Part shown: positions 2,621 to 17,452 of the stretch, in pieces | Numbering within the stretch: position 1 is the first letter of the stretch | How the letters are laid out: each line of letters starts with the position of its first letter | Source: a virus | Strand: one strand, 5' to 3' | Length of the DNA: 34,725 nt | Virus record (IMG/VR): IMGVR_UViG_3300007734_000611 | Coordinates: 1 to 34,725 of that record | Program-made: the position numbers and the translations under genes | The notes under the pieces: generated by a model | Seen by the model: the letters and a program-made list of their open reading frames with translations, nothing else | Told to the model about the DNA's origin: nothing | The model's database searches: none

Positions 2621-4899
2621 TAATGTACACCTACAATTTTACCGTTTTCATCTCTTAATACCCGTTTTGGTTGGCTTAATTTATCCATTAAAGCCGCTAA
2701 TAACTGGGTCATTTGTTGATTGCTTTGGTGCATATTCTCAATTACTGGTTGCAATGGATGATTTTTCATATTTGAATATCCTAATTGGTCTTGCAAAATA
2801 TTTGCCATGTGAACATTGTCTTGGTACGCTGTTTCACCCGTATCTAAGCCTGAAGATATGCGAGTAGTTTCAATTTTGCCAGCATTTTCAATATAAGCTA
2901 ATAATAAGTCTTTATTGGTTGTAGCTTCAATCTTCATCTGTTCTAACTGTGCTTCCATCTCTCTATCAGCAGCATTTCTTTGTGCCTCAAGTTGAAATTT
3001 CAATTGGTTTTCTTGAGCTTGGTACTCTTGTTTAGCTTTTTCTAACTCATTCTGAGCTTGCATTTTCTGCATATCTAATTGAGCAGCCATTTGAATCTGT
3101 TGAGTCTTAGCTTGGCTTTCCATCTGGGCTTTTTGCATCTCTGGGCTAGGTGGTTTAGGTTGGCCCTCGGCTTGTTTAGCTTGTTCTCTAAACTTATCAG
3201 CCGTTTCGTCAATAATGCCTTCCATCTGTTTACCAGCTTTAAACGCAGTCACACCAAACTTGAGCATTTCCATGAGTAATGGGGTAAGTTCAGGTGCGGC
3301 CTGACCCACAGGTAAGGCAGTTTGTACAAATGAAGATACAGCCGATAAAAAAGCCACCCTGTCTTGCTTTTCTTGCTGCTCATCCTGATAAATCATGGAG
3401 TCAGAAGTAACCTCAACTCTGAAGTTCTTGCTGGCTTCGTCTTTTAACAGTTGAATAGCTTGTGGGATGTATTGCTTATCTGCATCAGATAGCTGCATTG
3501 CGCCACTAATCTTGACAATGGTTTCATCCGTGTAATGGTTGCAAATAATCTGTGACTTAATTCTTAATAGTTCGGTAGCAAAGTCCACTACATTGTGCTG
3601 CATAGTCTTTAAGCGACCTTGAGCGTTATTAGACTTAATAATCTGTGCGCCAAGGGTTTCGTTAGGGTCTGTTTGTCCACGCTGAATATCAGCAATGCCC
3701 ATGATTTCGTAGATTTGACCCTTAACTTGCTCCATTGCCTGATAAGCAGCCACTAAAGCAGTAGCAAATGGGGTAATGTCTACTAAATCTAATGCGCCTT
3801 TCATGCCCTGTTTTTCAGCAAATGCCATCCAATTTTTAACAGGAATTAAAGTGTTGTTTTCGCCTTCAGAGAACAAGCGGCTTAACTCGCTTGAGCTAGC
3901 ATCGTATACACCACGCACTTTAAGGGCGTTAATCAATCCATCAATACGGTCACATAAGACATCAAGCTCTCTGGCTTGGTCTTGGTACATCGTAAAGTCA
4001 GGGATTGGGTCAAGGCCATCGGTTGTGATAGTTGAATAAAGGGGTTTAGGGCAGGGCCAGAAGTTTTCTAATTGAAGTGGGTCATCTCGCTCATCAAGGA
4101 TTTTGCCCATTGACTTAGAAATCCATAAAACTTTGCCTGTTTCTTTATCCCAGATTTCATAGACTACAGCTTGTGATGAACCTTCGCCCATCTTTTCGTT
4201 GTATGTCTTAGAAGAATCGGGCTTAGTATCTAATGGGATACGGTAGCCTAAATCTTCACCAAAGCGCTCTACTAATGCAGGGCGATTCATATAAACTTTA
4301 CGCCATACTGCGGTTACTTCTTCCCAAGTTCTAGCAACAGTATGACCAAAATCACGCCAATGCACATAGTCAACTGGAGAACACTCGTACTCAATACGCT
4401 CTGGGGCTTCTGCTGCTTCTGCGCCAGGCGTTTCTGATTCATCCGTATCCTCTGTAATCTGGTAACCATCGTCAGGTTCTCCCTCGGCTTCAAAGTGTGG
4501 CTCGTACCGTACCCATGCTGTGCCTCTGCCGCCTAATAACCTGTCTAATACTGAGTTAGACATAGCGGACTTATAGTCGCTGTAATGCTCTAATTCAAAC
4601 TCTAAAGCTCGCTCAAGCATCATTGAGGCAACACGACCTATTGGGTCATTGTCCCTAAATCTACGGCTTACATCGGGGCGTGGCAATCTAGCAAAGATAG
4701 CTGGGGTAATAACCTGAACATTAGACCAAAGGATATTAAAGCGAGCATTGGGGTTGTTTTGATAACGGGAGTCATCTCTATAGCGCTTAACAATTTTAGT
4801 AGCTCTACCTTCCCAATTCTTAAATGTCCGTTCATAGGACATTATGCGGTTGTACCAATCCTCGTAAGAGTGAGCTACTTCGCCTTTAAGTTCTGCCAT
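2620..4899 (-). CDS. Portal protein (P22-like class)
   Basis: A 759-residue protein, the length expected for large podovirus portals. The N-terminal part (YRDDSRYQNNPNARFNILWS, then IFARLPRPDVSRRF) and the central region (GGRGTAWVRYEPHF) look like portals of P22-like podophages. The C-terminal third, roughly residues 580-690, is a Gln/Lys/Glu/Ala-rich coiled coil, and the end is charged. The portal forms the dodecameric DNA channel and binds terminase. I choose the ATG at 4899 because it overlaps the terL stop as TAATG and has a good SD (GGGAGA). A TTG start at 4938 in the same frame would add 13 residues and overlap terL by 40 bp. The family call is by recognition. Confidence 0.88.
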   Translation of the reverse strand: MAELKGEVAHSYEDWYNRIMSYERTFKNWEGRATKIVKRYRDDSRYQNNPNARFNILWSNVQVITPAIFARLPRPDVSRRFRDNDPIGRVASMMLERALEFELEHYSDYKSAMSNSVLDRLLGGRGTAWVRYEPHFEAEGEPDDGYQITEDTDESETPGAEAAEAPERIEYECSPVDYVHWRDFGHTVARTWEEVTAVWRKVYMNRPALVERFGEDLGYRIPLDTKPDSSKTYNEKMGEGSSQAVVYEIWDKETGKVLWISKSMGKILDERDDPLQLENFWPCPKPLYSTITTDGLDPIPDFTMYQDQARELDVLCDRIDGLINALKVRGVYDASSSELSRLFSEGENNTLIPVKNWMAFAEKQGMKGALDLVDITPFATALVAAYQAMEQVKGQIYEIMGIADIQRGQTDPNETLGAQIIKSNNAQGRLKTMQHNVVDFATELLRIKSQIICNHYTDETIVKISGAMQLSDADKQYIPQAIQLLKDEASKNFRVEVTSDSMIYQDEQQEKQDRVAFLSAVSSFVQTALPVGQAAPELTPLLMEMLKFGVTAFKAGKQMEGIIDETADKFREQAKQAEGQPKPPSPEMQKAQMESQAKTQQIQMAAQLDMQKMQAQNELEKAKQEYQAQENQLKFQLEAQRNAADREMEAQLEQMKIEATTNKDLLLAYIENAGKIETTRISSGLDTGETAYQDNVHMANILQDQLGYSNMKNHPLQPVIENMHQSNQQMTQLLAALMDKLSQPKRVLRDENGKIVGVH

Positions 4900-13776: not shown

Positions 13777-13805
13777 AGTATGGTTAACTTATGTTAATAG
13801 GTCAA
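13777..13805 (-). promoter_or_regulatory. Predicted sigma70 promoter for the secreted-protein operon
   Basis: On the minus strand TTGACC (13805-13800), 17 bases, then CATACT (13782-13777). The -35 matches five of six consensus bases and the -10 four of six. Transcription would begin near 13770, giving a leader of about 22 nt before ATG 13747. An inverted repeat sits in the spacer. Confidence 0.6.
13784..13797. promoter_or_regulatory. Operator-like site O3 (TTAACTTATGTTAA)
   Basis: A 14-bp imperfect palindrome with perfect TTAAC/GTTAA arms, located between the -35 and -10 of the promoter at 13777-13805. It differs from the site at 15199-15212 only in three central bases, and closely resembles sites at 15146-15159 and 17139-17152. 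A protein bound here would block the promoter. Confidence 0.5.
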
Positions 13806-13808
13806 CAT

Positions 13809-13997
13809 TTATTTTATAGGTGTTTTCCCTATGTGTTGTAAATTTACAATTTCTGTACGCCACCAAACTTCACTTGCAATGTATGACTTTAAGTCTTGCC
13901 GTTTCGTGTAGTAGTAGGTTTCAGTTAAATTGTGGTTATTCCAACCACTTAGTCCTGTAGGCAGGGGTGTAATTTCTAATTCCATTAAATCATTCAT
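13809..13997 (-). CDS. Small protein rich in Tyr and Trp, function unknown
   Basis: A 62-residue protein (MNDLMELEITPLPTGLSGWN ... TYYYTKRQDLKSYIASEVWW) that I do not recognise. ATG 13997-13995 is preferred because GGAG lies eight bases upstream. The frame stays open to a GTG at 14087 (92 residues), which has no good SD and would run into the structured region. The gene ends just upstream of the predicted promoter at 13777-13805, so it may belong to the transcript that starts at the regulator gene. Confidence 0.55.
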   Translation of the reverse strand: MNDLMELEITPLPTGLSGWNNHNLTETYYYTKRQDLKSYIASEVWWRTEIVNLQHIGKTPIK

Positions 13998-14096
13998 ATC
14001 TCTTTCTCCATAGAACGACCAACCATCATTGATGGGTTTTATGCAAGTGATGTATGCCGTTTCAAGGCTGTCCAAGTCGGCTTGCACCGATTACTT

Positions 14097-14144
14097 GAGG
14101 GTTTTGCAGGTGTCGACCCTCGCTCCAGTTCATTCACTAACTGG
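14097..14144. other. Two small hairpins downstream of the interleaved repeat element
   Basis: Perfect six-base arms GAGGGT/ACCCTC (14097-14102 with 14116-14121) and CCAGTT/AACTGG (14125-14130 with 14139-14144) follow one another within 50 bases. Together with the element at 14205-14332 they make most of the 350-bp stretch 13998-14348 look like structured RNA and not coding sequence. No T-tract follows either hairpin. Confidence 0.5.
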
Positions 14145-14204
14145 CCTCAACCCCATCTAACCTATTTCGCTGGTTTTTTGCGACACGGTAACCCGAATAT
14201 AACG

Positions 14205-14332
14205 CCAGACCAAAAGAAAAAGCTCCATTCAACTGGGCTGGGGTCTGGAAAGATGACAGAGTAGCTAAACTAGGTAGTCAATCCAGCCCATGTGAATAGA
14301 GCCTTATTGCTATCTGTCGAGTTTTCCAGACC
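14205..14332 (-). ncRNA. Structured element of interleaved inverted repeats (pseudoknot or attenuator)
   Basis: Two long inverted repeats are interleaved in the order A-B-A'-B' on the minus (transcribed) strand. A pairs 14309-14332 with 14242-14265 (24-base arms, ten-base perfect outer stem GGTCTGGAAA, then GACAGA and TAGC blocks). B pairs 14283-14302 with 14222-14241 (20-base arms, 17 matches, perfect TGGGCTGG core). B' follows A' with no gap and is followed at once by a U-tract (TTTTTCTTTT, 14221-14212), so B would make an intrinsic terminator. A further GGTCTGG at 14211-14205 can compete for the A' strand. It lies between two leftward genes. I know no named RNA family with this layout. Confidence 0.65.
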
Positions 14333-14348
14333 TGACAGCATTATTTTA

Positions 14349-15185: not shown

Positions 15186-15215
15186 TTGACATTTTGTATT
15201 AACTTGGATTAATAT
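15186..15215 (+). promoter_or_regulatory. Predicted rightward early promoter
   Basis: Perfect -35 TTGACA at 15186-15191, with TAATAT at 15210-15215 after an 18-base spacer (four of six matches). ATTAAT with a 16-base spacer is an alternative -10. It would drive the recombination operon beginning at 15257 with a leader of about 35 nt. Confidence 0.62.
15197..15214. promoter_or_regulatory. Operator-like palindrome O2 (TATTAA / TTAATA arms)
   Basis: An 18-bp perfect inverted repeat with a six-base centre (CTTGGA). Its 14-bp core TTAACTTGGATTAA shares 11 of 14 bases with O3. It covers the spacer and -10 of the rightward promoter, so a bound regulator would shut that promoter. Confidence 0.55.
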
Positions 15216-17188: not shown

Positions 17189-17452
17189 ATGGAAACAACA
17201 TTGCAACGCAAATCAAGAATTAATGGGGATGATTTAGCCGCAAATAGTCAGTTTAATCACGCAAAAGATTTTTTTGCTGGTTTGGCAACTTATGAAATTA
17301 CACCGTCATTTGGCACATCATTTTCTGTAACTCAAATAACGCCTAGAGGTCAGGTATCTGGCTGGGCTAAAGATTATGATGCTGCTTTGGCTATGGTAGA
17401 AGAATGGAAAACTGCAACGCTTTGCAATGGCTATAGAAATTTATGGCAATAA
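17189..17452 (+). CDS. Small protein, function unknown
   Basis: An 87-residue protein (METTLQRKSRINGDDLAANS; FFAGLATYEITPSFGTSFSV; GWAKDYDAALAMVEEWKTAT), mixed helix and strand, with no family recognised. The SD AAGGGGAAAC is strong. It opens a second block of the rightward operon after the structured gap and overlaps the next gene by ten bases. Confidence 0.68.
   Translation: METTLQRKSRINGDDLAANSQFNHAKDFFAGLATYEITPSFGTSFSVTQITPRGQVSGWAKDYDAALAMVEEWKTATLCNGYRNLWQ

Follow-up and report, generated by a model that had tools for sequence, protein, structure and literature searches.

An intrinsic terminator is a stable stem followed immediately by a U-rich tract. In pseudoknotted riboswitches and attenuators of the fluoride, preQ1, and ZTP type, a pseudoknot lies beside a terminator near the promoter, and the aptamer and the terminator arm have bases in common. 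The C4 RNA (RF01695) and the P4 CI RNA are small phage RNAs with complementary segments, encoded near immunity or replication genes. Betaproteobacteria-1 (RF02932) is an orphan RNA, and a 2017 survey reportedly describes such orphan motifs. The put RNA of phage HK022 is ∼70 nt long, consists of two adjacent stem-loops, and suppresses downstream terminators (PMC9378689).

The locus examined here lies on the minus strand of a 34,725-nucleotide viral sequence (IMG/VR record IMGVR_UViG_3300007734_000611, positions 1 to 34,725; "the window") and resembles each of these systems in part. Two interleaved helices, A and B, and then a U-tract occupy positions 14340 to 14212. Stem B directly precedes the U-tract, as in an intrinsic terminator, but it encloses a large "loop" containing further helices, and A', the 3' part of this loop, pairs outside the stem and so forms a pseudoknot that is kept groupwide. 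As in the riboswitches, the pseudoknot adjoins a terminator near a promoter; in contrast to them, A and B share no base, there is no ligand-like conserved core across sequence types, and another RNA rather than a metabolic gene lies behind the element. The put RNA is likewise an early-region phage RNA that acts in cis on terminators near early promoters, whereas our element is an interleaved pseudoknot and put has no terminator of its own (PMC9378689). Membership in the put group was rejected, since the fold differs and the element ends in its own terminator. The complementarity lies within one RNA, unlike that of the C4 and P4 CI RNAs, and the C4 model matched neither the window nor five related records at E ≤ 10. 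Betaproteobacteria-1 and EGFOA (RF02955) share the locus, filling or resembling the filler of the slot directly downstream; they correspond to that second RNA (module 2) and not to the pseudoknot-terminator (module 1), and neither model matches the window.

At the gathering score, no Rfam 15 family matched anywhere over the window, module 1 included. The sole Rfam match at E ≤ 5, a plant miRNA model (19 bits), was taken as spurious. Module 1 also had no Rfam matches in related loci, a tRNA/tmRNA search found none, and no name for the element was found in the freely accessible literature. Module 1 represents a real RNA class that is apparently undescribed and that no Rfam family covers.

From position 14348 on the minus strand, the order is TAAAAT, hairpin E, strand A, E', strand B, linker, A', B', and UUUUUCUUUU. 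The features of the locus are as follows.

14343 to 14348, minus strand: −10 promoter hexamer TAAAAT, with a predicted start ∼7 nt downstream
14334 to 14340, minus strand: 5' arm of hairpin E, TGCTGTC, a covarying 5' hairpin around strand A
14323 to 14332, minus strand: 5' strand of helix A, GGTCTGGAAA, in the loop of E; the equivalent helix of relatives covaries
14308 to 14318, minus strand: 3' arm of hairpin E (E'), GACAGATAGCA, whose GACAGA part alternatively pairs with 14260 to 14255
14283 to 14303, minus strand: 5' strand of helix B, GGCTCTATTCACATGGGCTGG
14255 to 14260, minus strand: helix A extension TCTGTC, pairing with GACAGA at 14318 to 14313 in window-type relatives only
14242 to 14251, minus strand: 3' strand of helix A (A'), TTTCCAGACC, abutting B'
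14222 to 14241, minus strand: 3' strand of helix B (B'), CCAGCCCAGTTGAATGGAGC, the 3' half of the terminator stem
14212 to 14221, minus strand: U-tract of the intrinsic terminator, UUUUUCUUUU, with U runs at 14221 to 14217 and 14215 to 14212
14008 to 14206, minus strand: second structured RNA (module 2; alignment A3, 8 relatives)
14086 to 14081 with 14047 to 14042, minus strand: module 2 pseudoknot, hairpin-loop TGCAAG with CTTGCA
13816 to 13838, minus strand: conserved box CAACACATAGGGAAAACACCTAT, which ends the RNA locus in most relatives
13777 to 13805, minus strand: distinct promoter-like site of the next gene, containing palindrome TTAACTTATGTTAA at 13784 to 13797

This anatomy is near certain. 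All four arms lie on the minus strand at the coordinates of the original prediction, which had given stems of 24 and 20 bases. Helix A proved to have 16 pairs rather than 24, a 10-bp core plus a 6-bp extension across an internal loop (∼−23 kcal/mol), and helix B is made up of a 10-bp and an 8-bp block, 18 pairs in all (−31 kcal/mol). B, followed at once by UUUUUCUUUU, has the form of an intrinsic-terminator stem, as had been proposed. A' abuts B' without a gap, and in the window type the foot of A' is a further possible partner for E'. A spare GGTCTGG at 14211 to 14205, thought to offer A' another partner, is not conserved (relatives have GGGTTGG or GTGCTGG), and the start of a 23-codon ORF across the arms is not conserved among relatives of the same type; both look incidental.

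Next, the arrangement was compared with chance. A descriptor requiring A ahead of B, A' directly adjoining B', and a U-tract after B' was scanned over both strands of the window, and the sole site found was this element, with a score of 69. The top score in 200 dinucleotide-preserving shuffles, also scanned on both strands, was 58, and none reached 60, which agrees with the initial judgment that such stems are very unlikely by chance. The nested fold by itself gave a z score of −3.5. A standard repeat finder detected neither helix, owing to mismatches.

Relatives were gathered through the upstream DUF5672 protein (Pfam PF18922), which was used to fetch the corresponding gaps from viral contigs. 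The sequence after the DUF5672 gene is very different between contigs, yet at least 26 share the A-B-A'-B'-U layout. With boundary-motif and element-pattern searches, the set grew to 64 or more distinct relatives that keep the layout, drawn from contigs of freshwater phages, mostly fragments, and the sub-family of the largest sequence type ("type a") comprises more than 100 sequences. Many relatives have no DUF5672 gene and carry the unit directly after a cro-like gene; in the window, the DUF5672 gene is inserted between the two. One complete deposited genome carries the unit, that of podovirus ctn9Y15 (MW202674.1; L085), in unrelated sequence, with helices A (TTGGCGGA/TCCGCCAA) and B (GGCCGTTTTAGCGTGTATCTTG/CAAGATGCACACTAAAGCGGCT) and a TATAAT. 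Four tiny "hypothetical proteins" (UOF80261 to UOF80264) are annotated antisense across its RNA locus (2729 to 3225) and are probably not genes. A 44-kb contig (IMGVR_UViG_3300047557_000594; L227 and L232) apparently has two copies of the element at different loci. A blastn search of the element against deposited phages gave no match; a direct pattern, GGTCTGGAAANNNNNACAGA, had 47 matches in viral contigs, none with the element around the match; and the element was absent from the whole genomes of terminase relatives (HTVC010P, Rhodoferax phage P26218, Venkman, and three Manatee Spring genomes). Given the lake and pond origin and the link to Betaproteobacteria-1, the hosts are likely to be Burkholderiales.

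Covariance analysis of these related phages found compensated changes in both crossing helices. Across an alignment of 102 relatives, standard pairs filled 98.2% of pair cells, 17 of 35 pairs had changed on both sides, and 357 cells had done so; 0 of 500 shuffles matched this, and slid controls reached at most 59%. Pairing held in 98.4% of helix A cells, where both sides had changed in 6 of 7 pairs, and in 98.7% of helix B cells (10 of 23). In 19 type-a relatives, 96.1% of P0+A+B cells were paired, with 0 of 500 shuffles equaling this and slid controls at 58% or less. For hairpin D, which lies between the B 5' strand and A' in many relatives, 97.0% of cells were paired and both sides had changed in 9 of 13 pairs. 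For segment C, located 5' of B, the partner in most type-a sequences is the D loop; the evidence per sequence is weaker for this pairing (p from 0.001 to 0.5). Hairpin E was supported across types by permutation (p = 0.0005; 56 relatives) and also by comparison of the window with its own close relatives L054, L108, and L200; the arms are UGCUGUC/GACAGaUAGCA in the window, ACGGUG/CACCGU in L054, GCGAUGUC/GACAUCGU in L108, and AGUCUUGUC/GGCAAGUCU in L200.

Further comparisons concerned the arms themselves. When arms were swapped between relatives (a set not chosen with the descriptor), complementarity dropped strongly for both A and B. L094 and L142, each 123 nt long, differ at six bases, which make up exactly three compensated pairs. 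Between relatives, 44% of the positions in A' differ, compared with 20% in the first 11 nt of B'. MAFFT applied to window-type relatives alone (alignment A4) misplaced a diverged pair, and covariation within the window type therefore rests on strand-by-strand comparison and the swap tests. Sequence and covariation together show helices A, B, D, and E, the terminator shape, the −10 hexamer, and module 2. The crossing order A-B-A'-B', with compensated changes in both helices, supports the H-type pseudoknot that had been suggested. Covariation shows that each helix is kept, and A and B may be present in one molecule at the same time; since they share no base, a pseudoknot is possible as the end state.

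The ends of the unit were examined in the relatives. In 53 of 57 relatives, strand A is preceded by a −10 hexamer matching at 5 or more of 6 positions, compared with 1.3 of 57 control windows; the most common spacing is 11 nt, and a run of at least five U residues follows B' in gene-anchored relatives. On the basis of this conserved −10 and the U run, the unit is predicted to extend from promoter to terminator over ∼125 nt, and the predicted transcription start falls inside hairpin E or immediately 5' of it. Only 1 of 107 units had a −10-like hexamer immediately past the U-tract. In type-a relatives, the E 5' arm can pair either with E' or with sequence past the U-tract (GCAGA with UCUGC); a 3' UCCG always occurs with a 5' GCGG (GCGGA with UCCGC), hence no A-C mismatch. 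In L097/L109 and L117, the order is cro-like gene, unit, and then a gene that starts 18 to 19 nt after the beginning of the U-tract; in these and in L137, expression of the downstream gene would require read-through. The gene behind the L097 unit encodes, by eye, a DUF1376-like replication protein. All four (L097, L109, L117, and L137) carry an additional hairpin separating A' from B', with the gene ≤20 nt after an 8-U tract, and they may be a separate kind. With module 2 lacking its own promoter and a gene start ≤20 nt past the U-tract in these few distant relatives, at least partial read-through of the terminator is likely. The promoterless module 2, together with 5' ends that pair beyond the U-tract, suggests that read-through happens and matters.

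Module 2 is itself structured. In alignment A3 (n = 8), its four helices were paired in 100% of cells, both sides had changed in 9 of 19 pairs, and 0 of 500 shuffles equaled this; its pseudoknot appears elsewhere as TTCTAG/CTAGAA, AACTAG/CTAGTT, and GTCAAG/CTTGAC. Different relatives hold different RNAs in this slot, and module 1 and module 2 types combine freely. The occupant is often Betaproteobacteria-1, with matches of 86 to 112 bits (threshold, 49.4) in L055, L063, L116, L202, L208, L220, L227, L237, L254, L259, L266, and L295; module 2 of the window did not match RF02932 at the gathering score. An EGFOA-like RNA, below threshold, is also among the occupants of the slot, and RF02955 matched neither the window nor other records.

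Our best explanation, to which we assign a probability of about 50%, is that the locus specifies a ∼125-nt promoter-to-terminator RNA in which a pseudoknot is joined to a terminator that is leaky or regulated and that gates the downstream RNA or gene. We infer the transcript, its ends, its regulated read-through, and its function from the sequence comparisons above. Transcription would begin from a promoter belonging to the unit, immediately after the cro-like gene (in the window, after the inserted DUF5672 gene), and the RNA would fold in order of emergence. Hairpin E would form first and show strand A in its loop; the B 5' strand and, in many relatives, hairpin D would come next; A' would then pair with A, and last B' with the B 5' strand. 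The product would be an interleaved pseudoknot of ∼125 nt whose second helix is the intrinsic terminator, so that most transcripts would stop at the U-tract, while leaky or regulated termination would allow read-through into module 2, or into the next gene in a few distant relatives. The pseudoknot would set the speed or firmness with which the terminator stem closes and would stabilize the released RNA. Nested folding of the growing chain, in which pseudoknots were not modeled, gave E, then A at ∼100 nt, and then B once B' was out. This explanation has its own difficulties: transcription of module 2 could originate in the upstream operon instead of continuing from this promoter, no good −35 was recognized for the window copy, and the relatives with a gene just past the U-tract may, as noted, be of a separate kind.

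Other explanations were weighed against this one. A single sequence could mislead, but the hypothesis of chance inverted repeats lacking function is already refuted by the compensated changes in the 102 relatives, with the 200 shuffles also against it, and we give it essentially no weight. A serious rival is that the RNA is purely a trans-acting sRNA, or the RNA part of an RNP, with the pseudoknot as its mature fold, B as its own terminator, and read-through without function. Its own promoter and terminator around one compact unit would suit such an RNA, as would the 5'-terminal hairpin and 3' terminator typical of stable sRNAs, the terminator between cro and the unit in L085, and the independent shuffling of module 1 and module 2 types. 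However, there is no conserved single-stranded seed, little is kept across types outside the paired arms, and the only complements of the E loop in the window are A' and one 9-base match (minus strand, near 17413). In addition, the type-a 5' arm that pairs past the terminator and the promoterless module 2 make read-through seem part of the design, and we regard the sRNA explanation, taken whole, as unlikely, if still substantial.

The original prediction had also offered competition, with A as an antiterminator that excludes terminator B. In nested folding, the A form is the best structure before B' is made and the optimum then switches to B, and A could kinetically delay closure of B; competition would produce this switch too, which counts against the pseudoknot explanation. 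A classical antiterminator overlaps the terminator arm, whereas here A and B have no nucleotide in common, A' abuts B', and both helices are kept in the same sequences in essentially every one of more than 100 relatives. Pairings that do compete lie elsewhere, at hairpin E, with the alternative partners of its 5' arm and of E' given above. We consider this attenuator improbable. Still less probable, and in our estimate very much so, is an immunity or incompatibility RNA in the style of P4 CI or P1 C4, in which the loop-borne A of one RNA would pair with A' of another nascent copy and set heteroimmune groups. The display of A in a loop, complementary to a site just before the terminator, would suit it, as would the position beside cro and before replication genes and an A that is much more variable between relatives than B and nearly always compensated. 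Yet A and A' lie in one molecule and self-pairing explains their covariation, the C4 model found no match, and lysogeny is doubtful given that neither an integrase nor a CI-type repressor was noticed in the window.

Thus, freshwater phages carry a well-supported structured RNA, with ∼100 aligned relatives of one sub-family and several sequence types, and its predicted promoter-to-terminator unit is open to direct in vitro testing. The orphan RNA Betaproteobacteria-1 gains a genomic context, at least 12 loci directly behind the element in phage DNA. A wider proposal is possible, although we hold it only tentatively and with more doubt than belief: a previously undescribed "pseudoknot-terminator" class, between cro and the replication region, would gate exchangeable cassettes of a second noncoding RNA (including Betaproteobacteria-1) by controlled read-through, and the compensated, hypervariable A may set specificity in co-infection. 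If true, phages would have a new means of controlling RNA output, one that joins a pseudoknot to an intrinsic terminator and places an exchangeable RNA cassette downstream.

Several minor features surround the RNA locus. The conserved DNA box CAACACNTAGGGNAAANNCCTA (13816 to 13838, minus strand, in the window) precedes promoters in many contigs of freshwater phages, including at sites apart from the RNA locus and in tandem (L093, L115, and L150). Similar palindromes, TTAACTTATGTTAA (13784 to 13797) and TTAACTTGGATTAA (15199 to 15212), lie in two promoter regions of the window, and the corresponding position in relatives holds TTAAG-CTTAA; these are possible operators of the cro-like protein. 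An ORF of ∼62 aa (13809 to 13997, minus strand) is present in the window and in L054 (61% identical) and absent from most relatives. Its likely start is the ATG at 13997, with GGAG upstream, and a longer version would start at a GTG at 14087, inside module 2.
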